Shown: piece after piece, positions 1 through 46,751 of the stretch
Layout: each line of letters opens with the position of its first letter
Position numbering within the stretch: the stretch's first letter is position 1
From: an uncultured Flavobacteriales bacterium
GTDB taxonomy: Bacteria; Bacteroidota; Bacteroidia; Flavobacteriales_D; Parvicellaceae
Direction: 5' to 3'
NCBI GenBank assembly: GCA_913030835.1
Contig: CAJWDP010000021.1
Location: 1 to 47,987 of the forward strand
Length of the DNA: 47,987 bases
The notes under the pieces: generated by a model
What the model was told of the DNA's origin: nothing
Seen by the model: the letters and a program-made list of their open reading frames with translations, nothing else
Databases searched by the model: none
Position numbers and translations under genes: made by a program

Positions 1-2127
1 GTGCGCTTGTGTTTGTTCAGAGAGCCAAATGTTAATGTTACCGGATTCAATTCATTGATATGTAACGGCAATGGTGACCCATCAGGACTTCCGTTGCAAA
101 TCTCCAAAAACTGGCACACTACTACTTCACAGTTGTTCTCAGGCAGCTGGATCAATGAGTACACAGAAATTATTTTACCAGGGAATACCACCATGAATTT
201 TCAGTATAAGTCAACCGGAGCAAAATGGGGGGAGACCTACAGTGCATCTTCGCATCAGCTTTCTGTTGCCGGCGTTGGAATTGCAAGGGGAGGTTGGCTC
301 GAGGCGGCGTTGGGCACTTTTGGCGAGAGCATAACACATTCGCCGGATTACGAATTTGGGAAAACAAATGGCGCTGATGTTCGACCATTTTTGGTCACCA
401 ATCAGGCGTATGGCGGAACTTCCAGTCAATGTGGCTGGACCGGAAATGTAGGTGGCATCGACATGTGGGTGTATTATGACGGAAGCAATGTTCGTCGGTA
501 TCAAAGCCAGGTAAAAACAGATTTCAAAAAGTACTCTCCGAATCTTACAGAGACATCCGTCTCAGCGATCTCTTCTGATGAGAAACTGAAGCTGGACTAT
601 ACGTTTCATCTCAATCGTTCGGATGATTATAATCGCATCTATTACAGAGTCAAGATCAAAGCACTTGACAATACCGCTTTCAATCGATTTGATATTTTTC
701 AGCTGGGGGGAGACATTTACAACATACATAATACCCAGCAAGTTGCCTACGGAAATGACACGGGTAGGGTAGCGCAATTTGTCCCAACCAATGATGGCTC
801 AAATGATTATACTACAGTTGCCATGGCTTTGGAAGGGAGTGATCCATGGATATGGGCAGGAGACGGACTGAATTATACGGGAGCAACCTCGGGTATTGAT
901 ATTGATTGCAATAATGGATTGATCATTCGGGACTATAAGGGAGTTTTTAATGGAGTACCCAATGATACGCCCTACTTCCGTGAACGATCCAGCAGTCAGG
1001 GTTTTTCTTCAAGTCATGGGACGAATCCAACGTCGTATTGTTTGGTTCCTCCTCCCGGTGTTACTTCTTTTTCCACGGGCGATAGCATAGAGTTTTTGGC
1101 GGAAGTGGTCATTTTGCCCAAACAGGCAGTTGACTATTATGGAACGAATCAGAATTTCACGAATGCATTAACAGCATTCGGTAATTCCTTCGAATTGTTG
1201 TTGCGTGAGGTGAAGAACAATCAAATCAAAGCTGCATCTCCAACACATGCATTCGACTCTATTTATCCACTTTCCGTGCAAACTTCGAATGATGAAGCAC
1301 TACTTGATCTGCATGGTGGAGTTGGGTATGTGCCCGTAGTTTTCACGGAATTGACCGAGGTAGACGACCCGAACCTATGGGTAGCTGAGGACAGCTGCTG
1401 GCAATTGGTAGACCAATCTGTTCATGGGAAAGATTACTGGCAAGCTGAATACAATGAAAATACGGGACTGTTTGATCTTATTTACAATGTAAATCAAGAC
1501 AGAGTAGGAGATAGCTTGGCGAAAACCCGATATTATCTGGGGGATACTCCTCCGGTACCGGAATTAGTCACCCAATCAATGATCTCTGGTCAGCCTGTTT
1601 CAGATTCGTCGGAGGTTCTCGTTCATCCGGGTGTGGATAGCCTGACGCTTTCACCTCAGGTTTCTATTTTGGGAGTCGTTGATTCCAACGCAATTGGATC
1701 ATGGTCCTGGACAGGTCCGAGTGGATTTACAAGCACAGGGAGAGAGCTGAATTTTTATCCCGTTATCTTGTCTGATTCGGGAACTTACACAGTTACGTAT
1801 GTAGCTCATGGTTGTTCGACTTCAGTATCTTTTCATATCGTCCCGCAGCTACCAACGGATGATCTTTCCTTGATCGGAAGGGTTCATGATGTAGTGTTGT
1901 ACCCGAATCCCGCAGCCGATCAAGTAGCAATTGAGTTTTCTAAAATCCAGGAGTTTGCACAAATAGATTTGTTTGACAATTTGGGACGCTTGTTGTTGAA
2001 AAAGGACATTGAATCTATCCAAACTACTCAATTGTTCTTCAAACAACTCAGTAGGGGTAGATACACCATTCGAATCAAAACTGAACAGGGCACCTCAATG
2101 CACCATTTAATCATTCAGAATGAATGA
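1..2127 (+). CDS. Secreted T9SS type A sorting-domain protein, 5' truncated
   Basis: The reading frame is open from the first base and has no signal peptide, so the true start lies outside the window; the GTG at position 1 is only the edge. About 708 residues are visible. Residues ~1-520 form a large beta-rich domain I cannot assign to a family. It is rich in Trp, Tyr, Gly and Asn, as in carbohydrate-active or adhesive extracellular proteins. An Ig-like/PKD-like segment follows at ~545-620 (WSWTGPSGF, then SDSGTYTVTYV). The last ~75 residues are a T9SS type A sorting domain (VVLYPNPAADQV, then LFDNLGRLLL and a final beta-strand pair). Such domains route a protein through the T9SS to the cell surface or medium and are usually cleaved. 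The gene converges with the CDGSH gene 32 bp downstream, and no clear terminator hairpin lies between them. The sorting domain is certain; the function is unknown. Confidence 0.85.
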   Translation: MRLCLFREPNVNVTGFNSLICNGNGDPSGLPLQISKNWHTTTSQLFSGSWINEYTEIILPGNTTMNFQYKSTGAKWGETYSASSHQLSVAGVGIARGGWLEAALGTFGESITHSPDYEFGKTNGADVRPFLVTNQAYGGTSSQCGWTGNVGGIDMWVYYDGSNVRRYQSQVKTDFKKYSPNLTETSVSAISSDEKLKLDYTFHLNRSDDYNRIYYRVKIKALDNTAFNRFDIFQLGGDIYNIHNTQQVAYGNDTGRVAQFVPTNDGSNDYTTVAMALEGSDPWIWAGDGLNYTGATSGIDIDCNNGLIIRDYKGVFNGVPNDTPYFRERSSSQGFSSSHGTNPTSYCLVPPPGVTSFSTGDSIEFLAEVVILPKQAVDYYGTNQNFTNALTAFGNSFELLLREVKNNQIKAASPTHAFDSIYPLSVQTSNDEALLDLHGGVGYVPVVFTELTEVDDPNLWVAEDSCWQLVDQSVHGKDYWQAEYNENTGLFDLIYNVNQDRVGDSLAKTRYYLGDTPPVPELVTQSMISGQPVSDSSEVLVHPGVDSLTLSPQVSILGVVDSNAIGSWSWTGPSGFTSTGRELNFYPVILSDSGTYTVTYVAHGCSTSVSFHIVPQLPTDDLSLIGRVHDVVLYPNPAADQVAIEFSKIQEFAQIDLFDNLGRLLLKKDIESIQTTQLFFKQLSRGRYTIRIKTEQGTSMHHLIIQNE

Positions 2128-4908: not shown

Positions 4909-5871
4909 TCAAGGAATAATTGCCGGACGCTGTGTGATTTCGTGATATCGAATAACGTCTTTTGCAAAATAATGCAGCACGGTGCTCTTTCTGGTCAGTT
5001 TCGGATTCAAGATTTTGCTGCCACCATGGATCAAATTGGCATGCCACAACAAGACATCGCCCTTTTTTGCCAGAAATTCAGTTCTCTTAAAGTCATTTTT
5101 TTGGATGACCTCTTCAATTGCAGTTTCGTATTTCGAATAAGCATTCTTTCCTAATAGAAAATAATTATCGCCGGCATCTATTTCTTCGGTTAGAACATAA
5201 TCCAGCCGATGGCTGCCGGGGTAGATGAATAGGGGGCCTTGGTCCGGGCCTATATCTTCCAAGGCAATCCAAACACCGATGAGATAACCGAGGGGGAATG
5301 TGGTCATGTGAATGCTGTCTGCATGTGCTTTTTGTTCGCTTCCATCAATAAAGTTGATGCTTTGGAACAAATCCACTTCTTTACCCAAAAGCATGCTAAG
5401 AACCGGTTTTAATTGCTCGATGGGCAGCAGCTTGGCGATCTTTTCGTTTTCATGAACCAAATTCATCAGCCGTCTGCTATGGGGGTATTTCCAAGAAACG
5501 GTTCCTGAATCGATTAATTGATCAATTTCCAGGTTGATTGCATCAACGATTTTTGCGTTCAGGTATTCTTGGAGAACGGCATAACCGTTATATGACCAAT
5601 CCAGTAATGATTCTTTTTGTTGATCAGAGATCTCAGAAAAGAATGGATGCTCTTTCAATCTTTCTCTGGAATTTTCCGAGTTAACATCGAGCCAGGGTGG
5701 AGTAGAGCTAACCTGATTGAAATCGGAATGCTTTACCCCCGATGCTTTGCTTTTCTTTAAGCCATATTTTCGGTATAGTTCCTGATCGTTGGCTAGTTTG
5801 TTGTAATTGACCAAGTTATTGGCAACATGCAACGGCTTAATTCGTTTGAAAATATTTCTGATCAGCCCCAT
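4909..5871 (-). CDS. Phytanoyl-CoA dioxygenase-like Fe(II)/2-oxoglutarate oxygenase
   Basis: Taking the ATG at 5871 gives 320 residues and a TAATG overlap in which the last A of the upstream PorP stop is the first base of this start. A longer in-frame start at 5946 would run deep into the PorP gene and is rejected. The iron-binding facial triad is visible: H183 and D185 (KAHADSIHMT) and H282 (IHGGS). R294 is in place for the 2-oxoglutarate carboxylate (KLTRKSTVLHYF). The FPLGYLIGVWIALEDIGPDQ and FIYPGSHRL stretches are typical of PhyH proteins. There is no signal peptide, so it is cytosolic. PhyH-family enzymes hydroxylate many small molecules and the substrate here is not predictable. Its coupling to a T9SS outer-membrane gene is unusual. 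Confidence 0.9.
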   Translation of the reverse strand: MGLIRNIFKRIKPLHVANNLVNYNKLANDQELYRKYGLKKSKASGVKHSDFNQVSSTPPWLDVNSENSRERLKEHPFFSEISDQQKESLLDWSYNGYAVLQEYLNAKIVDAINLEIDQLIDSGTVSWKYPHSRRLMNLVHENEKIAKLLPIEQLKPVLSMLLGKEVDLFQSINFIDGSEQKAHADSIHMTTFPLGYLIGVWIALEDIGPDQGPLFIYPGSHRLDYVLTEEIDAGDNYFLLGKNAYSKYETAIEEVIQKNDFKRTEFLAKKGDVLLWHANLIHGGSKILNPKLTRKSTVLHYFAKDVIRYHEITQRPAIIP

Positions 5872-6941
5872 TATGCACCCGGTCCTGGCTTTTTGAAGCC
5901 TTTGGAGTTGTGGCTTTTGAATAAGGCCGTATTTAGGTTCGCCCATTGAAGAGAGATCTCGAAACCACCCATGTATCGTGAAGCTTCTGTAAAGCTCAGA
6001 TTCATGTCGTATGACAAGCCAACTTTAAATGCATCCAATTCAAGGAAAAATTCGGGTATAACCGCATCATTTACCCTGTATTTGGCTCCGAATGAAATAT
6101 AGGATTCTGTATAAATACCGGTGTATTTTGTTCCGGATTTAATTTCGATCTTCAATAAAGCGCCATACAGCTGCTCTGAGAAAGGACCTTGTTTGAAGTA
6201 AGCAAAATTGGGTTCAACAGCAAGCTTTGATCCGGGTATGTTGACTAAAACATCCCCATGTAGTACCAGCTTAGAGTCCATTCTGGTTCTTGCCCCGCCA
6301 AAGTCAATTGTGGGCTTCGTTAAGTGAAACAAAGCGATTCCCGCATGAGCTCTTCTTAGGATTTCGGCACGTCCAAAACTCACATTATGATTCCTGTAAC
6401 GATATACAGCTCCCATGCCCATATCGAAATAAAAATTCGATGCAATACCAACCGGCTCACCGACGGTAATTGAATTGTCAAATGCCCCATCGGTTGAATT
6501 GAATTGGGAGGCCCAGGTCAGGTTATCGTAATTCACCTTTTGCTGACCGCTTCCGAACTGCATTCCTGCGGCGACAGTATGTTTGTCTGCCAGAGGAACA
6601 ATTGCAGAAACATTAAGACTTCCTGTGGTTACCCCGAATTTCGAATCTCCTGCTACATCACTGTAGAAGTTAATGCCTGCTCCAAGATAGGCCTTGTCGT
6701 GTTTTTCGGGTTTTCCAATGTTAAGTTCGAAACTTCCGTTGGTTGTGACATAAGGAGACTGAACAGATGACCATTGCTGACGATGATTCAAAATAACGCG
6801 TTCCCATCCCATAAAAAGGCCTGTATTTGCAGGATTGATGAGTATCGGTATTTGAGCCGATTGAGCGAAATGGATGTCCTGTGCGTTGCCGGTCGCACAA
6901 GCACAGAAAATCAACAATATGATCAGCTTTCTTCTTATCAT
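5871..6941 (-). CDS. PorP/SprF-family type IX secretion outer-membrane protein
   Basis: This 356-residue protein has an N-terminal signal peptide (MIRRKLIILLIFCACATGNAQ) and then the family hallmark AQDIHFAQSAQIPILINPANTG. Alternating beta strands fill the rest, as expected of an outer-membrane barrel (GAGINFYSDVAGDSKFGV, FGAKYRVNDAVIPEFFLELD). PorP/SprF proteins are commonly encoded next to T9SS substrates with type B C-terminal domains and are needed for their secretion or attachment, as in SprF with SprB of Flavobacterium. That pattern is seen here: the start overlaps the stop of the CotH-like type B substrate gene by four bases (ATGA), and the stop overlaps the start of the PhyH-like gene. 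It is therefore the likely dedicated partner of the CotH-like protein. Confidence 0.93.
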   Translation of the reverse strand: MIRRKLIILLIFCACATGNAQDIHFAQSAQIPILINPANTGLFMGWERVILNHRQQWSSVQSPYVTTNGSFELNIGKPEKHDKAYLGAGINFYSDVAGDSKFGVTTGSLNVSAIVPLADKHTVAAGMQFGSGQQKVNYDNLTWASQFNSTDGAFDNSITVGEPVGIASNFYFDMGMGAVYRYRNHNVSFGRAEILRRAHAGIALFHLTKPTIDFGGARTRMDSKLVLHGDVLVNIPGSKLAVEPNFAYFKQGPFSEQLYGALLKIEIKSGTKYTGIYTESYISFGAKYRVNDAVIPEFFLELDAFKVGLSYDMNLSFTEASRYMGGFEISLQWANLNTALFKSHNSKGFKKPGPGA

Positions 6942-9448
6942 CGTACAAGGGTAATGTTTCCTCCTCGAATCTCTTCAGTTCCATCGGTTTTTTCCATTCC
7001 AAGAATGTACGTATATACACCGTTAGGACAAGGCTGTCCTTTAAATTGTCCATCCCAGAATAAACCGGCTTGCTCACTTTCAAATAGCAGCTGTCCCCAT
7101 CGATTGTAGATGCTCAGCTTGAATTTGGCAATATCGTAACCGACAAAATATTCGAGCTGATCGTGCAGTCCATTGTTGTCGGGAGAAAATGCATTGGGCA
7201 CGTGAAAACCTTCAAAGGTCGACGGAATAACAGGAGTAGTGCCATCTTCTGCAAAATGAGCAATAATGTCATCAGGTCCGGTGGCCTGAAATCGAACACC
7301 TGCAGAGTCAATGGATGGAGTAGGAACATGTGATCCGAATTCCCAGTAAGCAAACTGATACCCCGGGTTGGCCTGAGCCTGTAATATGATGTCGATGCCT
7401 CCGTAATAATTACCGCTGAATATATACGAGGGCAGCCACAAAGAATTGACCTTAATGGAACCCGCTCCAGCGGGTTGAACATCATAGGTAAGGTTAAATG
7501 GTCCGCTCAGCTCATAACAATCGATCATGCCTTGTTCTAGCTCAGTACAGCGTGTTGTGATCCAGTTTCGCCAGGCTTGCACGTTTGCTTCCCATCCGGC
7601 ACGGCTACCTCCCCATCGGGTGAACTGACGGTCCATTTCGGGGTCGATCAGCGCAATCAGACTGTCAAGGTGAGCAATCATGGTGTCACAATTGAATACG
7701 CTGTTGAACAGGTCTATGTATCTGGACACGTAGTACTGCTGAAAGGTGTCGTTTTCCATGAGCTTGTTGAGGATCGGTACGTGTCCTTGACCACCCGGAT
7801 CGGATAATGCTTCGGGATTGCATGGATCTGCCGTTGCTCCTTGGTCAGGAACGCCCGTGTAGTTGATGTAATGGCCAAAGGCAGCGTCGTTGTCCCAAAG
7901 CGCATAGCGCCATTTCTTTTTCTGACCCAGAGGATCCATTCCACGCCACCAGGCGGTATTCCAGTTGAGCCAGTCTGCTGAAACGATGACTGAGTTCAAT
8001 ACCATATAGTCCACTAATGATTGCCACTTGTATTGGGATTTCATCGTATTCCAGTTGGCCGGAATGGTCATGTCGTTGGCTGCTACCCAGGCTTTGAAGG
8101 TGTCCCAGTCGGAAATAGCGGTGCCACCTGCGTCATACTCAGCCCAGGTTCCACCCCAAGTTTTTAGGAACTGAAGATCGTACTGTCCCTGCTGATAATA
8201 ATGTCCTGTAAAATCGTGATCGTCTACCTTTTCTCTTAGTTCATAAACCCCCCAGTATGTTCCGTTTACATATAATATGCAGGGTTCATAGGAACGCTCG
8301 TCCATGAGCAGCTTTCCCTTTTGCGACAGTGAATGAACATAGGCATCTCGCATATGACATCCTCCGGGTTCAAACGGATAGTTATCATTCGCAGCAGCTT
8401 TGACGATCAACTTTTGAAATTCGTTACGACTGGTTTTCTCTCTGAAAATATAATCGTGTAGCGCGTTATTATATCCGTATTCATCTTCCAGAACAATATC
8501 GATTCCTCTTTGGTCATAGGCCCAGGAGTCGTTTCCATGTTTGTTGGTAATTCCTGTTCCCTCGTCGATCTGGGTTAGATTGCTTTCGAAGTATTCAATG
8601 GTGCAGTCGAAATTATCAGAAAAAGCGTCCCAGTGGGTGTCTTCAATGAACTCGGTCACTTCATCACCGGCTATGGATACCACTTTAACGGTATGCGACT
8701 CATCAATAAAATAGGTGTTGGTTTCAACAAAGCTAACGGGCACCCCCGGGGTTGAACTAAACCCCCTTGCTCGCAGCACAGTAGTGCTTGAGATGGCAAT
8801 TGGCCCTGAAGCAATGGCGGAAGTAGCAGTCGGTGTGGAACCATCTGTGGTATAGCGGACCGTCGCAGTTGCATCTGTTGATGTAATGGTAACGTTCACA
8901 CTTCCGGTATATCCACCGGCAGGCTGGTCCATCGCCGGTTTAGCGGTGTATTCTTCTATTGCTCCCGAATTTACTGCATTCGGTGTTGGAGCGCTAAACA
9001 ATTTCCAGGTTGCTGATCCATCCGTTTCTCTTCCCCTTGAATGTCCGTACTGACAAGGTTGTAGGGTTAAGCTGTCTATTATTGTGCCCGTAGCATCTGA
9101 TAGAATGATCTTTTCCGGGTTGTAGGCCTGCCTTAACTTAAAATTGGTGTGGTATTCTGTGCCCACGGTTGTGTTTCTTCTCGTGCAGTAGAACATCACT
9201 TTCTGTCCTGCATTGATTGTGACAGCCGGAATGGCATATTTTAACGGATTCCCCGCCTTATCACTCAGAAAGTAGCCCGTAAGATCGACCGACCCTGCAC
9301 CTGAATTGTGTAGCTCGATCCAGTCGGGTGTTTTTCCATAAGAATCGGTTAACGAATTGTTCGCCGCACAGTATTCGTTAATCACTATCTGGCCATGAGA
9401 TACTAGCGACATCAGAGTCACAACAAACAGTGTAGAAAACAGCTTCAT
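6938..9448 (-). CDS. Secreted CotH-like kinase with lamin-tail domain and T9SS type B C-terminus
   Basis: This 836-residue protein begins with a signal peptide (MKLFSTLFVVTLMSLVSHGQ). Domains in order: a lamin-tail domain (~20-130; IVINEYCAANN, DWIELHNSGAGSVDLTGY); a chitobiase/hexosaminidase C-terminal-type beta domain (~170-250; VRYTTDGSTPT); a CotH kinase domain (~255-590); a short beta segment like InlB/Flg_new repeats (~655-710); and a gliding-motility-associated (CHU_C, type B) sorting domain (~745-836; VPNAFSPDNNGLHD, YNRWGQLLFES, NGVYTYILG). The CotH motifs are YWGVYELREKVDD near residue 400 and WDNDAAFG near 518, the latter carrying the metal-binding acidic residues. CotH of Bacillus is an atypical protein kinase of spore coat proteins. 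Extracellular CotH proteins in Bacteroidota have no settled substrate. The gene heads a coupled operon with porP and phyH. Confidence 0.92.
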   Translation of the reverse strand: MKLFSTLFVVTLMSLVSHGQIVINEYCAANNSLTDSYGKTPDWIELHNSGAGSVDLTGYFLSDKAGNPLKYAIPAVTINAGQKVMFYCTRRNTTVGTEYHTNFKLRQAYNPEKIILSDATGTIIDSLTLQPCQYGHSRGRETDGSATWKLFSAPTPNAVNSGAIEEYTAKPAMDQPAGGYTGSVNVTITSTDATATVRYTTDGSTPTATSAIASGPIAISSTTVLRARGFSSTPGVPVSFVETNTYFIDESHTVKVVSIAGDEVTEFIEDTHWDAFSDNFDCTIEYFESNLTQIDEGTGITNKHGNDSWAYDQRGIDIVLEDEYGYNNALHDYIFREKTSRNEFQKLIVKAAANDNYPFEPGGCHMRDAYVHSLSQKGKLLMDERSYEPCILYVNGTYWGVYELREKVDDHDFTGHYYQQGQYDLQFLKTWGGTWAEYDAGGTAISDWDTFKAWVAANDMTIPANWNTMKSQYKWQSLVDYMVLNSVIVSADWLNWNTAWWRGMDPLGQKKKWRYALWDNDAAFGHYINYTGVPDQGATADPCNPEALSDPGGQGHVPILNKLMENDTFQQYYVSRYIDLFNSVFNCDTMIAHLDSLIALIDPEMDRQFTRWGGSRAGWEANVQAWRNWITTRCTELEQGMIDCYELSGPFNLTYDVQPAGAGSIKVNSLWLPSYIFSGNYYGGIDIILQAQANPGYQFAYWEFGSHVPTPSIDSAGVRFQATGPDDIIAHFAEDGTTPVIPSTFEGFHVPNAFSPDNNGLHDQLEYFVGYDIAKFKLSIYNRWGQLLFESEQAGLFWDGQFKGQPCPNGVYTYILGMEKTDGTEEIRGGNITLVR

Positions 9449-11644: not shown

Positions 11645-12376
11645 TCATGGTCTCGTTTTTTTGTGATTTAATCGTTTATATTCCGGGTAATAATAGGTTA
11701 GAGTGTCTTTGCTGATGGGATTGAAGTTATTATGTGATCCGTAAACGAACACCCTGCGAAACGCTTTTACTCTATCGGGAGACCAATTCTTCATAGCCTC
11801 GGCCAATTCCCTGTGGTATTTATCTTTCATTTCTTCTGTGTATCCTATATTCGACCTTGTTTCGGATGTAAAGTTGTCCGATTCAGCATATACTGTTAGG
11901 GTGCAAAAAACCCACTTATACCTACCTGTTTCATCCCAGGAATATGTATCACCTTTTTTACAACTTATTGCCCCTACATTAGCTCCGTTTGGGTTGAGTA
12001 ATACGTCATTGTGTGTTGGTGATTCTCTCCATAGTTGGAAAATATGACTAGCAATGTATTCTTCTGAATAACCAGAAGCACAAACCACCGCACAATTCTC
12101 GCCGGAATAGAGCCAATTGATCCCGTACAAGTCCAATCGTGATGTAGGGGTGGGTGTTTTGCTGTTTTCATCGTGTCCCATTGTACCAGACTTTACTTGA
12201 TAGTTGGTATGGTGTTCGGCAGGTTCAAAAGCTTTGTCTGACCAGGCCCATCTTTTTAAACCGTTGGCGGCTCTATAATTGTTGCATTTTTCGAACAACA
12301 AGTGATCCAAAGAAGTTTGGGATATTGCACCTAAACTAGTTCCAATCAGAGCTCCTATTAGACATAATTTTTTCAT
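11645..12376 (-). CDS. Secreted CAP-domain (SCP/PR-1-like) protein
   Basis: This 243-residue protein has a signal peptide (MKKLCLIGALIGTSLGAISQ) and a CAP domain at ~20-170. The family's metal-binding His/Glu set is recognisable: H55 (EPAEHHTNYQ), E93 in the GEN motif (SGENCAVVCA), E118 and H122 (LWRESPTHNDVLLNPNG), and the closing GANVGAISC and WVFCTLTVY strands. Bacterial CAP proteins are secreted and are thought to bind lipids, metals or cell-wall ligands, with no general catalytic role proven. A ~70-residue C-terminal extension of unknown type follows. No T9SS domain is seen. It starts 6 bp after the stop of the caspase-fold candidate and is the last of four secreted-protein genes in a row. 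Confidence 0.9.
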   Translation of the reverse strand: MKKLCLIGALIGTSLGAISQTSLDHLLFEKCNNYRAANGLKRWAWSDKAFEPAEHHTNYQVKSGTMGHDENSKTPTPTSRLDLYGINWLYSGENCAVVCASGYSEEYIASHIFQLWRESPTHNDVLLNPNGANVGAISCKKGDTYSWDETGRYKWVFCTLTVYAESDNFTSETRSNIGYTEEMKDKYHRELAEAMKNWSPDRVKAFRRVFVYGSHNNFNPISKDTLTYYYPEYKRLNHKKTRP

Positions 12377-12382
12377 CGAATT

Positions 12383-13249
12383 TTATTTTTTCTGAACAGC
12401 TAAAAATGACCTGTGTTTTCGTGAGTTATTGATTAGGTCCCGAAACGTGTAATCACTGGGTGCTACAAATGCTATTGAATAACTTTTCGCTGGGGGAAGT
12501 GTCTCGGTTGTACTTCTTCCATTGATTGTCGTGGTTATTTTTCTCTTTTCCCCGCTGTAATGACTACTTACTCCTGCGACAATACCTTTGTCGTATCTGC
12601 AGATCTTTTCTATCGTTTGATGGTACCTTTCGGTAGTTTCCCGATACAGATCATAAACGTTTTTCTGTTCAATTAATAATTTCCGAAACAATGCAATGTC
12701 TGATCCACAAAAATTATTTGCAAAATACATTCCGGCACCGTTATTGACATAGGGTCGTGCATTAAGAAATACACGGTCACGAGCGGTAGTGTAGGAAATG
12801 CTCTGGCGATCACCTGCTGAACTACCAGCCCCGGTGCAAACATGATTATACATTACCACCGCATTCGGCGCTAGTTGGATCTTTTCTTCTAATTCAAGAT
12901 TGTACATGTGTCTATCCTCCAGACAGATTACACCAGAGGTGTTTCCGTGGCCTTTGTAGACGAAAATATTAGCGGATTTGCTTGCTTTAATTACATTATC
13001 GCTTGTGGAGTTAGGAGGGTACAGCTCTTTTACCTTAATTCCCAGAGACCGGAGGAATTCTGCAAATTCTTTAGAAGCAGGTACAAATCTATCGCAGCTT
13101 TCATCCCCTACGATAATAACAGCCTTTAATGCTCCGTATGCCTTTTTGAGGCTGTCGGGAACAACATTGGATGATTGAGCACAAATGGATTGACATATAA
13201 AGAATACTACTCCAAGTAGCAGGCTGACTTTTTTTATTTTCGATTTCAT
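12383..13249 (-). CDS. Secreted putative caspase-fold (clan CD-like) cysteine peptidase
   Basis: This 288-residue protein has a signal peptide (cleavage near ICAQ, residue ~25). The following region reads like a caspase-hemoglobinase fold. Strand 1 is LKAVIIVGDE (41-50), then a helix (VPASKEFAEFLRSLG), strand 2 (IKVKELYPPN), strand 3 ending in His (NIFVYKGHGN, H101), a helix, and strand 4 ending in Cys (NAVVMYNHVCTGAG, C138). A GAGMYFANNF segment and a helix follow, as in gingipain-like proteins. The order, GHG motif and spacing fit a clan CD His-Cys dyad. This assignment comes from visual motif reading only. If right, it would be a compact secreted peptidase without T9SS tail or propeptide. 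It lies between the transglutaminase-like and CAP genes on the same strand, 47 and 6 bp from them. Confidence 0.6.
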   Translation of the reverse strand: MKSKIKKVSLLLGVVFFICQSICAQSSNVVPDSLKKAYGALKAVIIVGDESCDRFVPASKEFAEFLRSLGIKVKELYPPNSTSDNVIKASKSANIFVYKGHGNTSGVICLEDRHMYNLELEEKIQLAPNAVVMYNHVCTGAGSSAGDRQSISYTTARDRVFLNARPYVNNGAGMYFANNFCGSDIALFRKLLIEQKNVYDLYRETTERYHQTIEKICRYDKGIVAGVSSHYSGEKRKITTTINGRSTTETLPPAKSYSIAFVAPSDYTFRDLINNSRKHRSFLAVQKK

Positions 13250-13296: not shown

Positions 13297-14985
13297 TTAT
13301 TGGTTTGATTCTTCTTCTGATGCGAGATCAACTCCGATTAGATTGAGCTTTTTGAGCACCACCTTGTGTTTCTTTTGTTCAAATTCGAACTGCAAACGAT
13401 TCGTGATTTGAAACAGGTCTCTATAAGTTCCGGGCTCAGGTTGGTTGATCATTTCTTTTGTTGGGACCGTATTAAATTCCCGAACCCATTCCGACAATTT
13501 GCCGTCCCAGGTCTTCACTTCTTCAATTATTTCTTTTGAAAATATATAGTGCCCTTCTTCGTCAAAGAAAACTGAGCAGGTGTCAGAGGTTAGCTCAGCT
13601 AGGCGCTCGTGATCGTCAAGATAAATGGCTGAAATTATTCCCAAGGCAAATCGTTCTTTGAGCTGATTGGATGCGGTTTCGCTATAATGCCTCATCAGAT
13701 CTTCAAAGGATCCTTTTATGGCTTTGTAAAATACTTTGGTTGAATTGTCGATGTTAAAAACCAGCGGCGTAACGGTTTTTTTGAGAGCAACATACACGTG
13801 TGTGGAATCAGCTGTTCGAATAGTTTTGGCCGTTTTCACATCAGAATAGGATCGATATGTAATATTTCCCGGATCTCCCACGTATGGAGTCAAAAACACA
13901 TCGCTCGACACTTTACTCGTACGAATGGTCCGATGACCCGGAAAGGCAATATGAAACAGGGAATCGCAGAATACCGTTCCCTTGTTTTTAGAAAAATCCG
14001 GCGATGAAATAGAGTCCATGGGTAGAGCTACGGGTAGCTGCTTGAATTGATCAAAAGTAATTGGATGTTCAAGAAGCTGATCTTCGGAATTGTCTGGAAA
14101 ATGCGAATAGATCATCAATGAAGGATCTACGTCTATCCATTGGTCGTCACCACCATCGGCCCACGTTACATCAAACAACCTGGGTTTGTCGTCGATCCAG
14201 ATCTTGTTCCATGCGTGGTATTCTCCGTTTCTACCGATGTGTGACAACCCGTTTCTGCTGAAGCCCAGTATTGTTTCACATTGCAAACCGGCCAATGTTG
14301 CCAGCTCTTCAAATACGAGGGAATACCCTTCACAAACTGCAAGCTGGGTCTCAAACAAGATGCGTTTGGTGTCATTTTGAGGACAAGCGTGAATTTTGGT
14401 TGTTAGAAATGCTCTGTCGTAACTGATCGATTCAGTAATGAAATGAACGATTTTCATTGCTTTTTCCTCATCTGTAACAGCGCCTTCCAGAATTAGCTCT
14501 ACCACTTTTTCTAAATCTGCCTCGGCCCATCCTTTTTCCGAGCGAACCGACACATTTTTTTTGGGATGCATATAAAACGGCTTCACGTAATCTTGATCCG
14601 TTGTGGTTCGGAAGGTGGTCTTTCGTTTTCTAAAAAGTGCTCTCCATACATTACGATAGAGATGATGGTTGATGCGAAATGGTCGATCGTAGTAGTAGCT
14701 GTCGAAATGCTCTCCCTCCGGCCGGTAGAGCGTCAATTTGGATTGGGTCTGACGATATTCACCAGTATTCCTTTTCACTTTGCAATCTGAAATTCCTCGG
14801 TAATCGCAGTGGTATCTGAGGTGCTCGTAGGTTTGATTTTGATACAGACGAACGAGCTCGAAGGAAGAGGCGGTATTTCTTTTGTGAAACACGGCAATAG
14901 GTGTTTCAGTTTGTGCGGTTGCGTGTGGAATAGACAACAAGAGAGCTCCAAGCAGCAACCCGTATCGTATTACGGTAGTTTTCAT
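13297..14985 (-). CDS. Secreted transglutaminase-like (papain-fold) protein
   Basis: This 562-residue protein has a signal peptide (cleavage near HATAQ, residue ~25), a basic, Tyr-rich N-terminal domain (~30-150), and a transglutaminase-core domain (~155-285). The catalytic triad is visible: C218 (TQLAVCEGYSLVFEELA), H257 (GEYHAWNKIWID) and D272 (RLFDVTWADGG). These match microbial transglutaminase-core proteins, most of which are probably cysteine proteases or peptide-modifying enzymes. Residues ~290-562 are unassigned. The C-terminal ~40 residues (EQKKHKVVLKKLNLIG) resemble part of the lipoprotein encoded just upstream. The gene is second in a minus-strand series of four secreted proteins. 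Confidence 0.85.
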   Translation of the reverse strand: MKTTVIRYGLLLGALLLSIPHATAQTETPIAVFHKRNTASSFELVRLYQNQTYEHLRYHCDYRGISDCKVKRNTGEYRQTQSKLTLYRPEGEHFDSYYYDRPFRINHHLYRNVWRALFRKRKTTFRTTTDQDYVKPFYMHPKKNVSVRSEKGWAEADLEKVVELILEGAVTDEEKAMKIVHFITESISYDRAFLTTKIHACPQNDTKRILFETQLAVCEGYSLVFEELATLAGLQCETILGFSRNGLSHIGRNGEYHAWNKIWIDDKPRLFDVTWADGGDDQWIDVDPSLMIYSHFPDNSEDQLLEHPITFDQFKQLPVALPMDSISSPDFSKNKGTVFCDSLFHIAFPGHRTIRTSKVSSDVFLTPYVGDPGNITYRSYSDVKTAKTIRTADSTHVYVALKKTVTPLVFNIDNSTKVFYKAIKGSFEDLMRHYSETASNQLKERFALGIISAIYLDDHERLAELTSDTCSVFFDEEGHYIFSKEIIEEVKTWDGKLSEWVREFNTVPTKEMINQPEPGTYRDLFQITNRLQFEFEQKKHKVVLKKLNLIGVDLASEEESNQ

Positions 14986-15091: not shown

Positions 15092-15601
15092 CTATTTTGA
15101 TTCGCATTGAGATTGATAATCCCGATGCTGAAACTGCACCCAGAACTCCTGGAGCCCTTCGGGAGTGATCTTTTCGATCAATTGCAAGTTCTGCTTGTTC
15201 CGGAAGGTATGTCGAACACCCGATTCTTTGATCTTATGTCCCCAACCTCCGCGATGGTCGAAGGAGGTAAAGGCTTCACAAGGATCCGATACCGACTCAA
15301 AGGGAATTTTCAGAGAGTAGGTCACATCTCCGATGAAATTCATTCCTTTGGTGGTCATTTGTATTTCTTTGAGCACCACCCTTGTGTATTTCTTTTGCCT
15401 ATAGAGTTCTTTCAGCTCTTCGCCCACACGTCGTGCCATATGATTCGAAAACTGGTGAGCCACATCCGATCCGTTAACAAATTCCGGTCCGATGTAGGTA
15501 CCTGAACATCCATTTTCGGTGCAGGTTATATCGTATTCTGGTTCAGAATGGGTGCAGCTTAAAAATGCAGCCAGAAGCAGTAAAGTTGCAAATTGGGTCA
15601 T
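15092..15601 (-). CDS. Putative lipoprotein of unknown function
   Basis: This 169-residue protein opens with a short hydrophobic leader ending in a lipobox-like AAFLSC (Cys16). An acidic stretch (HSEPEYD) follows, as in surface-exported Bacteroidota lipoproteins. The mature part has several Cys (CTENGC, DPCEAF, a final C) that could form disulfides, and a helix-strand segment ELYRQKKYTRVVLKEI (66-80). I do not recognise a family. That segment resembles the C-terminus of the transglutaminase-like protein encoded 106 bp downstream, in both protein and DNA, so part of the two genes may share an origin. It is the first gene of the four-gene secreted set. Confidence 0.68.
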   Translation of the reverse strand: MTQFATLLLLAAFLSCTHSEPEYDITCTENGCSGTYIGPEFVNGSDVAHQFSNHMARRVGEELKELYRQKKYTRVVLKEIQMTTKGMNFIGDVTYSLKIPFESVSDPCEAFTSFDHRGGWGHKIKESGVRHTFRNKQNLQLIEKITPEGLQEFWVQFQHRDYQSQCESK

Positions 15602-15840: not shown

Positions 15841-18800
15841 ATGGTAAAAATGTGCCGCGTAGTGTTGCTGTTTCTGGCCATCTCATTGGTGGCTACTGGT
15901 CAATTTGTTGCCCAGGATGATCCGGTAATGGTACTGACCGTTGGAAAAAAAGGAATCAGTGATAAGTTCGGAAGAAAGGTAGATGGCGCAACCATAAGCA
16001 TCAAACAGGACGGAAAAGCCTTCAAGACCGTAACTACAGCTAGTAACGGGAAGTACGAAGACGTTACAATGCCCTATGATCATGTCTATGAAATCACCAT
16101 AAGCAAAGGTGGTTTTGTTAAAAAAGTTACGATCATAGATGGAAAGAAGGGCTATTTTCCGGAAGACGTAAAGGAAAAAAAGACGGAAATTACTTTTGTC
16201 CCGGAAATGGTCACGAAGCAACCTGGGGTCGATTACTCGATAATTACCAATGCGCCCGTTGCAAAAGCAAGAATTGACCCTTCGACCGGACAAATGAACT
16301 ACGATATGGGTTTCATTTCCAGAAGAAGCAAGGAGATCCAGAAGTTCATGGAGGGAGTGGCGAACAAGGAAAAGGCGAATGAGGCTGAGTTCAATACAAA
16401 GCTGGCAGCAGCAAATAAAGCATATAGCTCGAAAGACTATCAAACAGCGATAGATAAATACAAAGAAGCCAAGGCACTAAAGCCGGATCATCCGGGGCTG
16501 GACGATAAGATTGCTCAGGCAAAGGCCAAAATGGAAGAGAACGCAGCGAATGCAGAGCTTTTGGCAAAATTCAATGCTAAGATAAAAGAGGGCGACGATC
16601 TGGTGCATACTCAAAAATGGGATGAGGGAATAAAAAAATACGAAGAAGCCAAATCGATGAAGCCGGGAGATCCAATACCGGATAAAAAGATCGCTTTGGC
16701 AAATAAGAAGAAGGCAGAAGCCGAGGACGCAGCGAAAAATCAGCAATACGCGGCCAAATTAAAAGAAGCCAAGGTTGCCTTCGATAGCAAGAACTACGAA
16801 AATGCGAAAACGCTGTATCAGGAGGCATTGGGCATTCGACCAAATGAGCGATTCCCATCGGATAAGATCAAAGAGATCGACGGAATCATGGCGAATAAGG
16901 CTAAATATGATGCCTTAATTAAGGCGGCTGACAGTCAGTTTGCTGCGAAAGAATGGAAGGCATCCAAGCTAAAGTATCAGGAGGCATTAAGAATCATACA
17001 CGACAGTTATCCTAGCGCTCAGATCGCAAAGATCGATGCCGAGCTTCAGAAGTTAATGCTTGAGCAGGAGCAGCGAGAAAAATACGATGCCCTGATCGCA
17101 AAGGCGAATACAGATTTCGGAAGCAAGAAATACGAGCTGGCAAAATCGAATTACCAAGAGGCACTTAAGCTCTATGAGAATGAAGCTTATCCAAAGGAGC
17201 AGCTGGCAAAGATCGATGATCTCATGAAAGAGAAGGAGGAAGAAAAGAAGAAGCGGGAGGAATTCAATGTGCTGATGGCCGAGGCTCAGAAACACTATGT
17301 GAACAACGATTGGGAACAGGCAAGAGCGTCGTACAAATCTGCACAACAGCTAATCGATGATCCAATGATCGCGCAAAAGCTGAGCTTGATCGACAAAAAG
17401 GAACAGGAAGAAAAAGATGCTGCGGAAGCCGCTGAGCGTCAAAAGCAAAAAGAAGAGGAATACAAACAAATTCTTGCAAGAGCTCAAGGGCAATTCGATG
17501 CCAAAAATTGGGAAGAGGCAAAGAAAACCTACAATGATGCGCTCGAAATATTCGATAGAAAAGAGGTTAGGGATAAACTCGCGGCGATCAATACCAACAT
17601 TCAAAGAGAAGCCAACTTGGCAAAAGTAGAGGAAGAAAAAAAGCAAAAGGAAGCGGAGTATACTGATTTGATGAGCAAGGCAAAAGCAGCCTTTGATGCA
17701 AAAAACTGGAGCGATTCCAGAACGCTATACAGCTCAGCATTGAAACTTTTTGATCGTCCTGAGCCAAAACAAGCGATCGCCTCTATAGCAGCTAAAATTC
17801 AGGAAGAAAATGCCGCGAAAGCGAAGGACGAAGCGGAAAAAGCAAAACGTGCAAAATACGATCAGCTTATTGCTAAGGCAGACAATCAATTCACGGCTAA
17901 AGATTGGGTCAATGCAAAAGCATCCTACAACAGGGCGCTATCCATGTATTCAGAAGATTATCCTAGGCAACAGCTTGCCAAGATCAAAACAGAAGAGGAA
18001 AATGAGCGAAATGCGCTGGCTGAAAAAGATAAAGAAGCCAAACTACTTGCTCAGTACAATGCAAAGATCAAGCAGGCGGATGCCGCTCGTAATGTTGCTA
18101 AGGATGGCCCTGGAATAAATGCCGCAATTGCATTGTATCGTGAAGCCAATGCAATTAAGAATGACGAAACATATCCAGCGCAGGAAGTAGCCAAGCTCCA
18201 GGAGAAGCTAGATGCACTAGCCGGTGCGCAAAAAGCGTACGACAAATTGATTGGGGTAGCGGATCAGAAATTTGCAGATGGAGATTATGAGAAGGCAAAA
18301 GAGCTGTATGCCCGTGCGCAGGGGATGCATCCTGAAGACGATTACCCTCCTAAAAAGATTATGGAGATCGAACGCAAGATCAAAGAGGAAAAAGATAAGG
18401 CGGCATTGGAGGCCAGAGAAAAAGAAAAACGTGATAAATACGACGCATTTATTCAGTCCGGGGATGCGAGCATGACGGCAGAAAAATGGACAGATGCACG
18501 AACCTCCTACACAGAAGCTTTGAAGTTGTTTCAAGAGGAGTATCCAAAACAACAGCTTGCCTTGATTGCCAAAAAGATCCGGGAGCAACAAAATGCTTCA
18601 GCAGCCGAAGCCGCTGAAAAAGAAAAACGGGAAAAATACAATGGTCTAATATCCAGAGCTGATGCGAGTTTCAAAGCAAAAAAATGGGATCAGGCCAAGT
18701 CAGTATATCGTGCGGCTCTCAATCTTTACGATGAGGCGTATCCAAAAGAACAGCTTGGGAAAATAGATGAGGAGATACAAAACGAAAAGGATGCGAATCT

Positions 18801-21162
18801 GGCCAAGGCTGAAGAAGCAAAAATTATGGCAGCTTACAGGGCGAAGATCAAGGAAGCAAATGCGGCGAGGGATCAGGCAACCGACGGAAATAAGATTCAG
18901 CGAGCAATTAATTTATACCGAGAGGCAAATGAAATTAAAAATGACGAAACCTACCCGGCAGAAGAGGTCGCTAAATTGCAGGACAGATTGGACAAGATCA
19001 ACGATGGGGCGGCTGCCTATCAGAAATTGATCGATGTAGCGGATAAAAAGTTTGCCGAAGAAAACTACAAAAAGGCAAAGGACCTTTACAATAGAGCGCG
19101 AGGAATTCGCCCAACAGACAGTCATCCTCCGAGTCAGATTAGAAAGATCAACGCAATACTTAAGGAAAAAGAAGCTGAGCTGGCAAAACAAGCCAAGTAC
19201 GAAAAGCTGATCGCTACCGGTGATGCCAATTATGGGTCGGAAAAGTACGTTGAAGCACTCAAATCATTCAAAGCAGCTCTGGCGCTCAAACCGCAAGAAA
19301 GCTATCCTGCCGAGCAGATCTCCAAGATTAAAAGATGGATGGCGGAAAATAATGTGGCAAGCAGTGAAACAAGTAGTGGGCCTAATAGAACCTATACGGC
19401 AAGTGATATGTATGGAGAAGACATCACAGGCCAATATACTGAGGAGGGTTTAACCGAGCTGTTCAGTGATAACAAAGTTCAAAGTGAAAATTGGAGAGAT
19501 AAAGAGGTAGACAGAATCAAGGCCTCTGAAAATGAATTCCATAGAAATTTAGAGCTCAATTCCGAATTGAAATCAAATACCAATTTTCAGGAATACGAAA
19601 CGTACAAGCAAGATCTTCAAGATGAGGATGTAGCTAGGGATTACAAGCGATACACGGTCATTTCGGAAATGGAAGAGGCAGATGAAGAGCGGTCAGCAGA
19701 GTATTTAGCGAAACAAATGGAGTCAACTGAGAGGACGTACGAGTCCTATAAAGATGGGGCAGCAAGGGTAGAACGAGAAGCACATAAGCTGGAGGAAATC
19801 AACCGTGGCAAGGAATTGAATGCAGAAGCGTTTGAAAAATTTAAAGACAATCACAGCTTCTGGGATGAAGCCAACAAAGAAAATGCGTTGACGAGAACAG
19901 AATTCGAACATGCACACAAAGAAAGCTTGCTGTCTAAAACAGCTGTTGACACGGAAGAGGGAATTAAGCGAAGAGAACTCACTGCAGAGTATCAATTGGA
20001 AAAAAACCTGAGTGTTAGTGAATTGAATCAAGATCTGCAGCAAAGAGACCAAGACAGGGATTATCTGCAAAGCGTGTATCGGGAGGGGTTAAAAGATCAG
20101 ATTGACGTAGATGCAAATATTGGCGATGAAAGAAGGTCAGGGTTTATCAACAAAATGGAAGAGTTTAAAAACGAGGAAAGGGAGCTGTATAAAGATCGAT
20201 TGGACCAAAATATAGACAGAAGCTACGCAAATCATCAGAGCATTGATGATAAGCTGGGAGAATTGGAAGAGGTACAAATAGAAATGGAGCAGCCAAGATT
20301 GAAATATGTAGATGCATACGATACCTACAAGGACGACATGTCTAAATGGAGTGAGGGTATGAGCCAGGATGGGGAGTACAAAACGTACGAAAAGCACAAT
20401 TTCATAGAAAATTTTAAAGTTGGTGCGGACAATTATAAAGACGATCTGGATATTCAGCGGCAAAAGAATGTTTCAGCAGTGGAGAATACGAAAGATAAAT
20501 TTGACAATGCTCATATCGATGATGACTTAGATAGCAAAGAATCCACATACAACCGACACCTTAAAACGGAAGAATTTGTCAAAAAGAATGAAGACATGTT
20601 CAAGTATTCGGATGACCAACGACAATCTAAGGTGAGAGAGCTCGAACTGGTACAAGACAGTTTTGAAGAGGGAAGAAGGGACCAGCAAGATGTATCAAAG
20701 AATAAGAATTTCAATCAGCAAAAGGCGTTGGATGATTTTGCAACAGCCAATGACAATATGTTGGCCGATGCGGATTTGCCGCGACAAAAATCGGTAAATA
20801 ACATGACAGATTATACCGATAAGTTATTGAATGACAAGGCTGCCAAGGCAGAAGATATGCAAGAAGCTTTGGACAATAGAAGACTCAAATACGAGGAAAA
20901 AGGGGCTGAAACAGTGGAGTCCAGTGATCTCAGCAATCAGCTGGCCGAGCAATACGATCAGGGAGTTACTGAAAAAGTATATCAGCAAAAAGATGCACGA
21001 GGTAACGTTAAAGAGATCACGGTAATTCGAGTTGTTGTGGAAGGAAACAAAGGTCACGAATACAAAATGGTGAAATCCAGATTCTCGGAGCGGTATTTTA
21101 AGGATGGGAATGCAATTTCCGAAACAGTTTGGGATACCGAAACAACCGTCCCCTCCGAATAA
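15841..21162 (+). CDS. Giant exported TPR-like repeat and coiled-coil protein
   Basis: This 1773-residue protein starts with a signal peptide (hydrophobic VVLLFLAISLVATG; the ATG at 15850 is an alternative start). Residues ~30-120 form a carboxypeptidase-regulatory-like beta domain (VDGATISIKQDG, SNGKYEDVTMPYDHVYEITI). Residues 184-1171 are 16 TPR-like modules of 52-67 residues. Residues ~1190-1690 are a highly charged helical region with its own weak repeats. The C-terminal ~60 residues form a compact beta segment (VTEKVYQQKD, VIRVVVEGNKGHEYKMV, RYFKDGNAISE). There is no other membrane segment and no T9SS domain, so it is probably periplasmic. TPR arrays are protein-binding scaffolds. The C-terminal segment looks like one I associate with other Bacteroidota repeat proteins, but this is from memory only. 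A GT2 gene starts 11 bp downstream. Confidence 0.85.
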   Translation: MVKMCRVVLLFLAISLVATGQFVAQDDPVMVLTVGKKGISDKFGRKVDGATISIKQDGKAFKTVTTASNGKYEDVTMPYDHVYEITISKGGFVKKVTIIDGKKGYFPEDVKEKKTEITFVPEMVTKQPGVDYSIITNAPVAKARIDPSTGQMNYDMGFISRRSKEIQKFMEGVANKEKANEAEFNTKLAAANKAYSSKDYQTAIDKYKEAKALKPDHPGLDDKIAQAKAKMEENAANAELLAKFNAKIKEGDDLVHTQKWDEGIKKYEEAKSMKPGDPIPDKKIALANKKKAEAEDAAKNQQYAAKLKEAKVAFDSKNYENAKTLYQEALGIRPNERFPSDKIKEIDGIMANKAKYDALIKAADSQFAAKEWKASKLKYQEALRIIHDSYPSAQIAKIDAELQKLMLEQEQREKYDALIAKANTDFGSKKYELAKSNYQEALKLYENEAYPKEQLAKIDDLMKEKEEEKKKREEFNVLMAEAQKHYVNNDWEQARASYKSAQQLIDDPMIAQKLSLIDKKEQEEKDAAEAAERQKQKEEEYKQILARAQGQFDAKNWEEAKKTYNDALEIFDRKEVRDKLAAINTNIQREANLAKVEEEKKQKEAEYTDLMSKAKAAFDAKNWSDSRTLYSSALKLFDRPEPKQAIASIAAKIQEENAAKAKDEAEKAKRAKYDQLIAKADNQFTAKDWVNAKASYNRALSMYSEDYPRQQLAKIKTEEENERNALAEKDKEAKLLAQYNAKIKQADAARNVAKDGPGINAAIALYREANAIKNDETYPAQEVAKLQEKLDALAGAQKAYDKLIGVADQKFADGDYEKAKELYARAQGMHPEDDYPPKKIMEIERKIKEEKDKAALEAREKEKRDKYDAFIQSGDASMTAEKWTDARTSYTEALKLFQEEYPKQQLALIAKKIREQQNASAAEAAEKEKREKYNGLISRADASFKAKKWDQAKSVYRAALNLYDEAYPKEQLGKIDEEIQNEKDANLAKAEEAKIMAAYRAKIKEANAARDQATDGNKIQRAINLYREANEIKNDETYPAEEVAKLQDRLDKINDGAAAYQKLIDVADKKFAEENYKKAKDLYNRARGIRPTDSHPPSQIRKINAILKEKEAELAKQAKYEKLIATGDANYGSEKYVEALKSFKAALALKPQESYPAEQISKIKRWMAENNVASSETSSGPNRTYTASDMYGEDITGQYTEEGLTELFSDNKVQSENWRDKEVDRIKASENEFHRNLELNSELKSNTNFQEYETYKQDLQDEDVARDYKRYTVISEMEEADEERSAEYLAKQMESTERTYESYKDGAARVEREAHKLEEINRGKELNAEAFEKFKDNHSFWDEANKENALTRTEFEHAHKESLLSKTAVDTEEGIKRRELTAEYQLEKNLSVSELNQDLQQRDQDRDYLQSVYREGLKDQIDVDANIGDERRSGFINKMEEFKNEERELYKDRLDQNIDRSYANHQSIDDKLGELEEVQIEMEQPRLKYVDAYDTYKDDMSKWSEGMSQDGEYKTYEKHNFIENFKVGADNYKDDLDIQRQKNVSAVENTKDKFDNAHIDDDLDSKESTYNRHLKTEEFVKKNEDMFKYSDDQRQSKVRELELVQDSFEEGRRDQQDVSKNKNFNQQKALDDFATANDNMLADADLPRQKSVNNMTDYTDKLLNDKAAKAEDMQEALDNRRLKYEEKGAETVESSDLSNQLAEQYDQGVTEKVYQQKDARGNVKEITVIRVVVEGNKGHEYKMVKSRFSERYFKDGNAISETVWDTETTVPSE
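16390..19353 (+). repeat. Array of 16 TPR-like modules inside the giant protein gene
   Basis: Sixteen modules of 52-67 residues follow the pattern [YF]xxLIxxAdxxFxxKxWxxAkxxYxxALxxYxxexYPxxqlakI, then a charged linker. Each begins with Tyr or Phe. Modules start near residues 184, 673 (17857), 739 (18055), 800 (18238), 867 (18439), 933 (18637), 999 (18835), 1060 (19018) and 1120 (19198), among others. The helix pair (LIxxADxxFxxKxWxxAKxxYxxAL) is the TPR-like core; the linker is rich in Lys and Glu. Confidence 0.85.
17857..19353 (+). repeat. Tandem duplication of a four-module block within the array
   Basis: Modules starting at 17857, 18055, 18238 and 18439 are mirrored in order by modules at 18637, 18835, 19018 and 19198. 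The second member of each block (18055-18237 and 18835-19017) is exactly 183 bp. Both carry a special insertion and shared text (YREAN, IKNDETYPA, EVAKLQ) found in no other module. First members are both 198 bp. The block appears to have been copied as a unit. Confidence 0.75.
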
Positions 21163-36509: not shown

Positions 36510-36600
36510 AATTACATCTTCATCTAGCAATGGACCTAAATCACATATAGTACCACTATCGCTAAAATGTCATAAAACACAGTAATATAGGTAGTTACAT

Positions 36601-46716: not shown

Positions 46717-46751
46717 GTATCTATGTAGGCAAACGATAAATTCAATTGCAT

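Follow-up and report, generated by a model that had tools for sequence, protein, structure and literature searches.

A compact, exported-type caspase-like protein family in Bacteroidota: a candidate clan CD cysteine hydrolase

Introduction

Stand-alone bacterial metacaspases with what is probably a signal peptide are already known: an excerpt of a 2012 study (PMC3501461) counts 46 stand-alone bacterial C14 sequences with one N-terminal helix that is possibly a signal peptide. For the metacaspases of Bacteroidetes, a role in the degradation of phytoplankton polymers has been suggested (PMC4933709, in excerpt), and legumain is described as exported and active as a monomer in the excerpt available from PMC4357240.

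The window analysed here is a stretch of 47,987 nucleotides (contig CAJWDP010000021.1) from an uncultured Flavobacteriales bacterium (GCA_913030835.1), and it encodes a caspase-like protein whose features are collected in Table 1. From sequence comparison and a predicted structure, we consider it likely that this protein is a compact cysteine hydrolase of clan CD that is exported by Sec, most plausibly an endopeptidase. The best reading of its family is a clan CD subfamily without a name, nearest to CHAT and C14.

The likeness to CHAT proteins (PF12770; SAVED-CHAT and Csx29/TPR-CHAT) lies in the best fold match (8tl0), the best profile match and the alignment of both His and Cys. The caspase-like protein differs from these in being of exported type and stand-alone, with no TPR or SAVED partner domain, and after the Cys the family mostly reads GGAGSS..D whereas the aligned CHAT proteins read ETG. 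C14 metacaspases and orthocaspases (PF00656) share with the family an aligned YxGHG motif and catalytic Cys, and one member (L030) passes the Pfam cut-off; the window protein, however, has neither a C14 match nor a DxC before the nucleophile, and carries a conserved C-terminal strand set with NG and KxYxIAYVG motifs. Gingipains (C25, PF01364) are alike in caspase-type fold (Z 12.4), GHG motif, export and phylum, but the caspase-like protein is far smaller, has no sizable propeptide or T9SS tail and gives a weaker profile match. Legumain (C13), caspases (C14A) and separase (C50) are alike in fold (Z about 10.5-11), whereas neither the caspase-like protein nor its alignments gave a sequence-level match to them in the PDB, and no added C-terminal LSAM-type domain or interdomain linker is apparent in the alignment or the model.

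The new element is a distinct subfamily marked by a signature of its own. It would add a compact, exported and apparently intact branch to the caspase-type peptidases, one without its own model in the searched libraries, and leaves the overall picture of clan CD unchanged. With about 264 mature residues and no obvious propeptide or partner domain, the protein may offer a simple model for caspase-type control outside the cytoplasm, and exported transglutaminase-like and CAP proteins are marked as its possible partners.

Table 1. Positions of the caspase-like gene, its main features and its two same-strand neighbours in the window
Feature	Position	Strand	Remarks
Caspase-like gene, stop codon included	12383..13249	-	288 aa, ATG start
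Signal peptide, residues 1-24	13178..13249	-	Cleavage before Q25 placed by eye, Q-rule type
H101 codon in YKGHG	12947..12949	-	Pairs with the catalytic His in C14, CHAT and C25
C138-D147 (CTGAGSSAGD)	12809..12838	-	Candidate catalytic Cys and family signature
Residues 171-179 (GAGMYFANN)	12713..12739	-	Core strand 5, then an invariant Asn
Residues 212-263, five consecutive beta-strands in the C-terminal part	12461..12616	-	N243, Y257 and A260 nearly invariant
Transglutaminase-like protein, upstream neighbour	13297..14985	-	562 aa; Pfam Transglut_core E 3e-11; exported-type N-terminus
CAP-domain (SCP/PR-1) protein, downstream neighbour	11645..12376	-	243 aa; E 1.3e-6; exported-type N-terminus

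Relatives and distribution

A tblastn scan of genome_contigs with the single protein found no relative. An alignment-based scan of the same collection returned 36 related loci, all from Bacteroidota MAGs assigned to Crocinitomicaceae, other Flavobacteriales, Chitinophagales, Saprospiraceae, Lewinellaceae, Prolixibacteraceae, Bacteroidales or just Bacteroidetes. By protein search, a caspase-like match was present in 9 of 199 related genomes, the bacterium's own included. Matches numbered 3/395 genomes in a phylum sample searched with the early alignment A1 (the own genome and two marginal partial matches) and 4/395, own included, in a class sample searched with alignment A2. Judged by these searches, the family is a small, patchily spread Bacteroidota group that is rare in wider samples.

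Alignment A2 consists of 37 rows, the window protein and its relatives. Locus L011, with a broken reading frame and a second match in G178, and the partial matches L013 and L014 (E 4.8e-4 and 9.7e-4) were left out before counting. A 113-aa contig-edge fragment (L050) took part in the locus clustering and was excluded from A2; L053 was found later and lies outside it, and L051 and L052 were not added beside L019 and L031. Among loci L002-L010, eight have counterparts in genome_contigs and were not doubled in A2, and L009, without a counterpart, was added. The alignment holds near-identical pairs such as L039/L040 and L021/L024, and its rows thus amount to fewer than 37 independent observations. 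In the tree, the window protein pairs with the L015 protein (support 100/100), and these two group, less surely, with L016/L020/L021/L024 (90/90).

Searches of viral_contigs gave no relative of the caspase-like protein, and neither did a search of plasmids with the L019 protein as query. Phage or plasmid cargo was rejected as an explanation on these results. A cysteine desulfurase model matched 4/37 members (best E 3.7e-4) and looks unrelated. The best matches in the open-licence literature contained no description of the family. On the sequence evidence, it is a distinct subfamily without its own model in the libraries searched, and its signature in A2 reads Y.GHG ... C..(A/S)G.S..D...I....A..R ... 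A..Y.(A).N.

Export signal

The leader is basic and hydrophobic and, read by eye, ends in ...ICQSICA before Q25. The signal peptide claimed in the earlier note is therefore borne out, as a hydrophobic N-terminus followed by SICA and then Q25. According to an excerpt of PMC5837995, most signal-peptidase-I substrates of Bacteroidetes have Gln as their new N-terminal residue once the signal peptide has been cleaved off. A loose pattern, [AGS] followed by Q within the first ~34 residues, was matched by 24 of the 30 Met-starting alignment rows; one of the six misses is a contig-edge fragment, and seven further rows have, as cut, no Met start. The Sec/SPI assignment was made by this pattern and by eye.

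Removal of the signal peptide would leave a mature protein of about 264 residues. In the predicted structure only about 17 residues lie between the signal peptide and the first strand, which argues against a large propeptide. No T9SS tail (PF18962/CHU_C, TIGR04183, TIGR04131) is among the families with a listed match, at E up to 1, in the 37 members, whereas TIGR04183 was matched 131 times in this genome at E up to 1e-3. The short stretch before the first strand and the lack of a listed sorting domain agree with the earlier description of a protein without the T9SS tail and propeptide usual for gingipains.

Predicted fold

The AF2 model built with A2 (37 sequences) had a mean pLDDT of 90.5 and a pTM of 0.88, with pLDDT below 50 in the last nine residues and one other; a single-sequence model (pLDDT 32.6) was discarded. 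The predicted core runs from strand 42-47 through a helix, strand 72-76, a second helix and strand 93-99 to H101 and a further helix, and continues with strand 126-135, C138, a long helix, strand 174-178, two helices and five strands. The order of strand, His, strand and Cys that had been proposed from the sequence is thus reproduced, with strand 93-99 leading to H101 and strand 126-135 to C138, and the GAGMYF segment noted after the Cys falls within GAGMYFANN (171-179), which holds the next strand (174-178). The fold and the alignments lead one to expect that H101 and C138 lie near each other in a single active site.

Foldseek against the PDB gave only four matches at E up to 0.001, all of them chains of the SAVED-CHAT filament 8tl0 (5.8e-5 to 2.3e-4). 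Next came Craspase TPR-CHAT and separase at E 2e-3 to 5e-3, and from about 5e-3 clan CD entries were mixed with unrelated proteins (methyltransferases, flavodoxin, SelA); TM-scores were about 0.4. Foldseek's candidates were re-examined with VIA-align 2, for which the best Z without a clear match is typically 7 to 8. The highest score was that of 8tl0 (Z 14.1, 167 residues aligned, rmsd 2.8), followed by DdvA (Z 13.8), with the gingipain RgpB in the fourth-ranked row (Z 12.4, 180 residues, rmsd 3.9) and caspases, legumains and separases at Z about 10 to 11. Apart from two DdvA rows and GSU0716, the best 50 rows consist entirely of CHAT, gingipain, separase, caspase, legumain-type or GPI-transamidase entries, some of them by presumed identity or clan membership. 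The caspase-like fold claimed earlier is thus upheld at the level of a predicted structure, with Z up to 14.1.

The DdvA match covers residues 799-991 of 8rot/8rw5, part of a transmembrane anti-sigma factor. It may hint that caspase-fold domains also act in envelope signalling. The best literature matches included nothing on the DdvA structure.

Relationship to known peptidase families

Taken alone, the caspase-like protein had no meaningful Pfam or NCBIfam match and matched no C14, CHAT or C25 model, and when PDB sequences were searched, neither it nor the L032 protein nor either alignment found a caspase or anything usable. Among the 37 members, Pfam Peptidase_C14 (PF00656) was matched by five at E up to 1; L030 passes the cut-off narrowly (21.7 against 21.4 bits), and on rescoring L032 (19.0 bits) and L035 (16.5 bits) fall below it. 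Pfam CHAT (PF12770) gave matches in three members within the E limit of 1, the best at E 0.0099, and two rescored members, at 15.8 and 14.9 bits, did not reach its cut-off of 24 bits. With Pfam C25 (PF01364), none of the 37 members matched, again at E up to 1.

The family profile was compared by hhalign with sets from related genomes that held 19 of 20 listed loci for C14 (without L068), 18 of 20 for CHAT (without L084 and L093) and 20 of 20 for C25. Probabilities were modest throughout. The strongest match was to CHAT (E 5.1e-5, probability 67%), followed by C14 (E 3.2e-4, 39%) and C25 (E 0.004, 8.5%). On the same scale, C14 matched CHAT at E 1.7e-4 (49%) and C25 at E 0.11. Reversed-alignment controls for C14, CHAT and C25 gave E 0.11, 0.32 and 0.36, and twelve alignments of neighbour-gene families, small at three to seven sequences each, gave E 0.12 to 0.57 as negative controls. 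The family's Y.GHG pairs with Y.GHG in C14, with the ATHG-type motif in CHAT and with YIGHG in C25. C138 pairs with DAC in C14 and with SACETG in CHAT; the alignment to C25 does not extend as far as the Cys. GAGMYFANN aligns with the CHAT segment preceding 'SLW'.

Membership of clan CD, as proposed in the earlier note, is therefore supported by the family profiles and the predicted fold, although the window protein by itself matches no clan CD model. None of the three outcomes that the earlier note named as refuting the proposal came about. The accompanying suggestion of a short exported member is supported too, with the qualification that the protein is not a small gingipain, since its profiles fit CHAT and C14 better than C25. 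That it might be a truncated or short gingipain is suggested by the rank of RgpB among the fold matches and by the paired GHG motifs in the C25 profile alignment. This explanation has a negligible probability, given that C25 is the weakest of the three profile matches and ends before the Cys, that no member matches the C25 Pfam model, and that the genome has, among the matches listed, two C25 proteins of its own, encoded elsewhere by open frames of 1286 and 1744 aa; the gingipain-fragment reading was rejected on the ranking of the profiles and the two distinct C25 proteins.

Conservation of the candidate dyad

H101 was kept in 36/36 A2 rows with a letter at that position, and C138 in all 37, as were G142, S144, D147, I151, A156, R159, A172, Y175 and N179; near-duplicate rows mean that these counts overstate the number of independent observations. 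The conservation of both residues in homologues, on which the peptidase proposal depended, is thus found throughout. Compared with its orthologue in the same genus (L015, 69% aa identity), the window gene has pN 0.19 and pS 0.81 (saturated), and 171 of the 283 base differences fall at third codon positions. These values indicate a conserved protein-coding gene under constraint.

A catalytically dead caspase-fold protein, acting as a binding or regulatory domain, has precedents in the pseudo-caspase CHAT1 domain of Csx29 (excerpt of PMC10028731) and in bacterial pseudo-orthocaspases (excerpt of PMC6426788). We regard this as very unlikely for the present family, because every row with a letter at the position keeps the dyad residue there, which would be unlikely without catalysis.

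Enzymes of the clostripain and metacaspase type that prefer a basic P1 residue have an acidic residue two places before the Cys. At this position the window protein has H and 28/37 rows have S, and the acid is absent, so basic-P1 specificity cannot be claimed. Caspases carry S1 residues directly after the fifth strand. The invariant N179, directly after the fifth strand, is our guess for an S1 residue.

Genomic neighbourhood

The caspase-like gene is flanked on the same strand by the transglutaminase-like gene, 47 bases upstream, and the CAP gene, 6 bases downstream. The N-termini of these two neighbours are of the same start type (TAQ and AISQ, respectively). Spacing and strand suggest that the three genes probably form one transcription unit. 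Promoter-like sites (8) were no commoner than in shuffles (11.6), and terminator-like sites (9) were commoner (4.1 in shuffles, sd 2.0), with eight on the + strand; the sole - strand site lies at 15641-15621, and none on that strand lies between the three genes.

A transglutaminase-like gene also adjoins the caspase-like gene in L015, where it is an orthologue (61% identical), and in L025, where it encodes a transglutaminase-core protein (Pfam E 2e-16) with only weak similarity to that of the window (phmmer 3.2e-9; the whole-genome search, with an E limit of 1e-6, does not list it). Beyond these two, phmmer found a transglutaminase-like neighbour in none of the 36 loci, several of which end at contig edges. 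Neither gene had a match in G001, a 96% complete genome and the third of the genus, and in the window's genome no more than two transglutaminase-core proteins score above the cut-off.

In L025 (4285-4420), the caspase-like frame begins across the stop codon of the upstream transglutaminase gene, in another frame. It has no signal peptide and no ATG, GTG or TTG before the first strand, an arrangement that suggests coupled translation or a frameshift-interrupted fusion.

The CAP neighbour was found by phmmer beside none of the relatives in the 36 loci. The place of a third partner is taken by CAP in the window, by an M54-like metallopeptidase in L015 and by a C92 permuted papain-like cysteine amidase in L016, the gene of which overlaps the caspase-like gene by 4 bases. 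A Pfam scan of neighbours covered 21 of the 36 relatives' loci, a few proteins each. Besides L015, L016 and L025, these loci include 18 others, in which the scanned neighbours were diverse, among them transporters, other enzymes, a sigma factor and unknowns. As the neighbours are varied and mostly unshared across the family, the caspase-like family does not depend on one operon.

A possible but doubtful proposal is that the caspase-like and exported transglutaminase-like proteins form a coupled envelope-processing system. The protease would activate, trim or limit the cross-linker, or the reverse, and CAP, M54-like or C92 proteins would be interchangeable as the third exported partner. The adjacency in the window, L015 and L025, the joint lack of a match in G001, the small number of transglutaminase-core proteins in the genome and the overlapping frames of L025 are in its favour. 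However, the L025 transglutaminase is weakly similar, the window and L015 count as one inherited case, and phmmer found such a neighbour in no other of the 36 loci.

The same fold and dyad could instead serve transpeptidation, ligation or de-amidation, for example in joining or trimming envelope peptides with the transglutaminase-like partner. An asparaginyl endopeptidase that can be converted to a ligase, according to the title of entry 6l4w, is among the fold matches. We take that enzyme to be from a plant. The Cys, His and Asp motifs of the transglutaminase-like neighbour look intact by eye. Hydrolysis is nevertheless the rule in clan CD, and no sequence feature points specifically to ligation, so we consider this alternative unlikely.

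We give a similarly low probability to an antagonistic or signalling effector, that is, an exported protease directed against competitors or released under stress, with the neighbouring products as co-effectors. This would be consistent with the patchy distribution among related genomes (9/199, own included), with the varying partner slot (CAP, M54-like in L015, C92 in L016) and with PADLOC matches, in which BovA matched 2/37 members (best E 9.5e-4) and three other models one member each. PADLOC gave no match for the 288-aa caspase-like protein itself, though, and the matches among members look like chance and unrelated; there was also no relative in viral_contigs or, with the L019 query, in plasmids, and no T9SS tail in the 37 members.

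Proposed mechanism

For the preferred reading of an exported endopeptidase, the protein would be exported by Sec and matured by signal peptidase I, and the mature form (~264 aa) would fold as a single caspase-type domain. H101 would activate C138, which would attack the peptide bond. With no T9SS tail, the enzyme would probably stay in the periplasm, or leave by another route. The cutting of extracellular or periplasmic proteins, as put forward in the earlier note, is plausible in this setting, and the enzyme may process a limited set of envelope or exported proteins. Its probable co-production with the transglutaminase-like protein and a third exported protein would make these candidates for a substrate or regulator. 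Since there is neither a propeptide nor a partner domain, any control would have to be exerted by an ion, by pH, by a partner protein or through access to the substrate.

Other genes at the loci

Locus L025 also encodes, downstream of the compact caspase-like gene, a 1144-aa protein (5823-9257) with a C-terminal Peptidase_C14 domain (E 1.4e-17). One gene, of the DJ-1/PfpI family, lies between the two, and the locus thus has two caspase-fold proteins.

In the window, a 169-aa protein (15092-15601) is encoded on the same strand upstream of the transglutaminase-like gene, and its N-terminus, ...LLLAAFLSCTHS, resembles a lipoprotein signal. It had no Pfam match at E up to 10 and, by phmmer, no relative in the 36 loci. 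Next to the putative operon, on the opposite strand, is a 1773-aa protein with many TPR repeats (15841-21162), which has a below-cut-off Pfam match to a carboxypeptidase-regulatory-like domain near its N-terminus.

A PorP/SprF gene (5871-6941, -) adjoins a gene for a CotH-kinase-domain protein with a CHU_C tail (6938-9448, -). Five T9SS proteins with a Por_Secre_tail are encoded in the 48-kb window (1-2127, 26589-29441, 33414-36530, 36791-38254 and 46746-47933). The last of these tailed proteins is a PET-hydrolase-like alpha/beta hydrolase, which matches Pfam PETase at E 4.5e-19.
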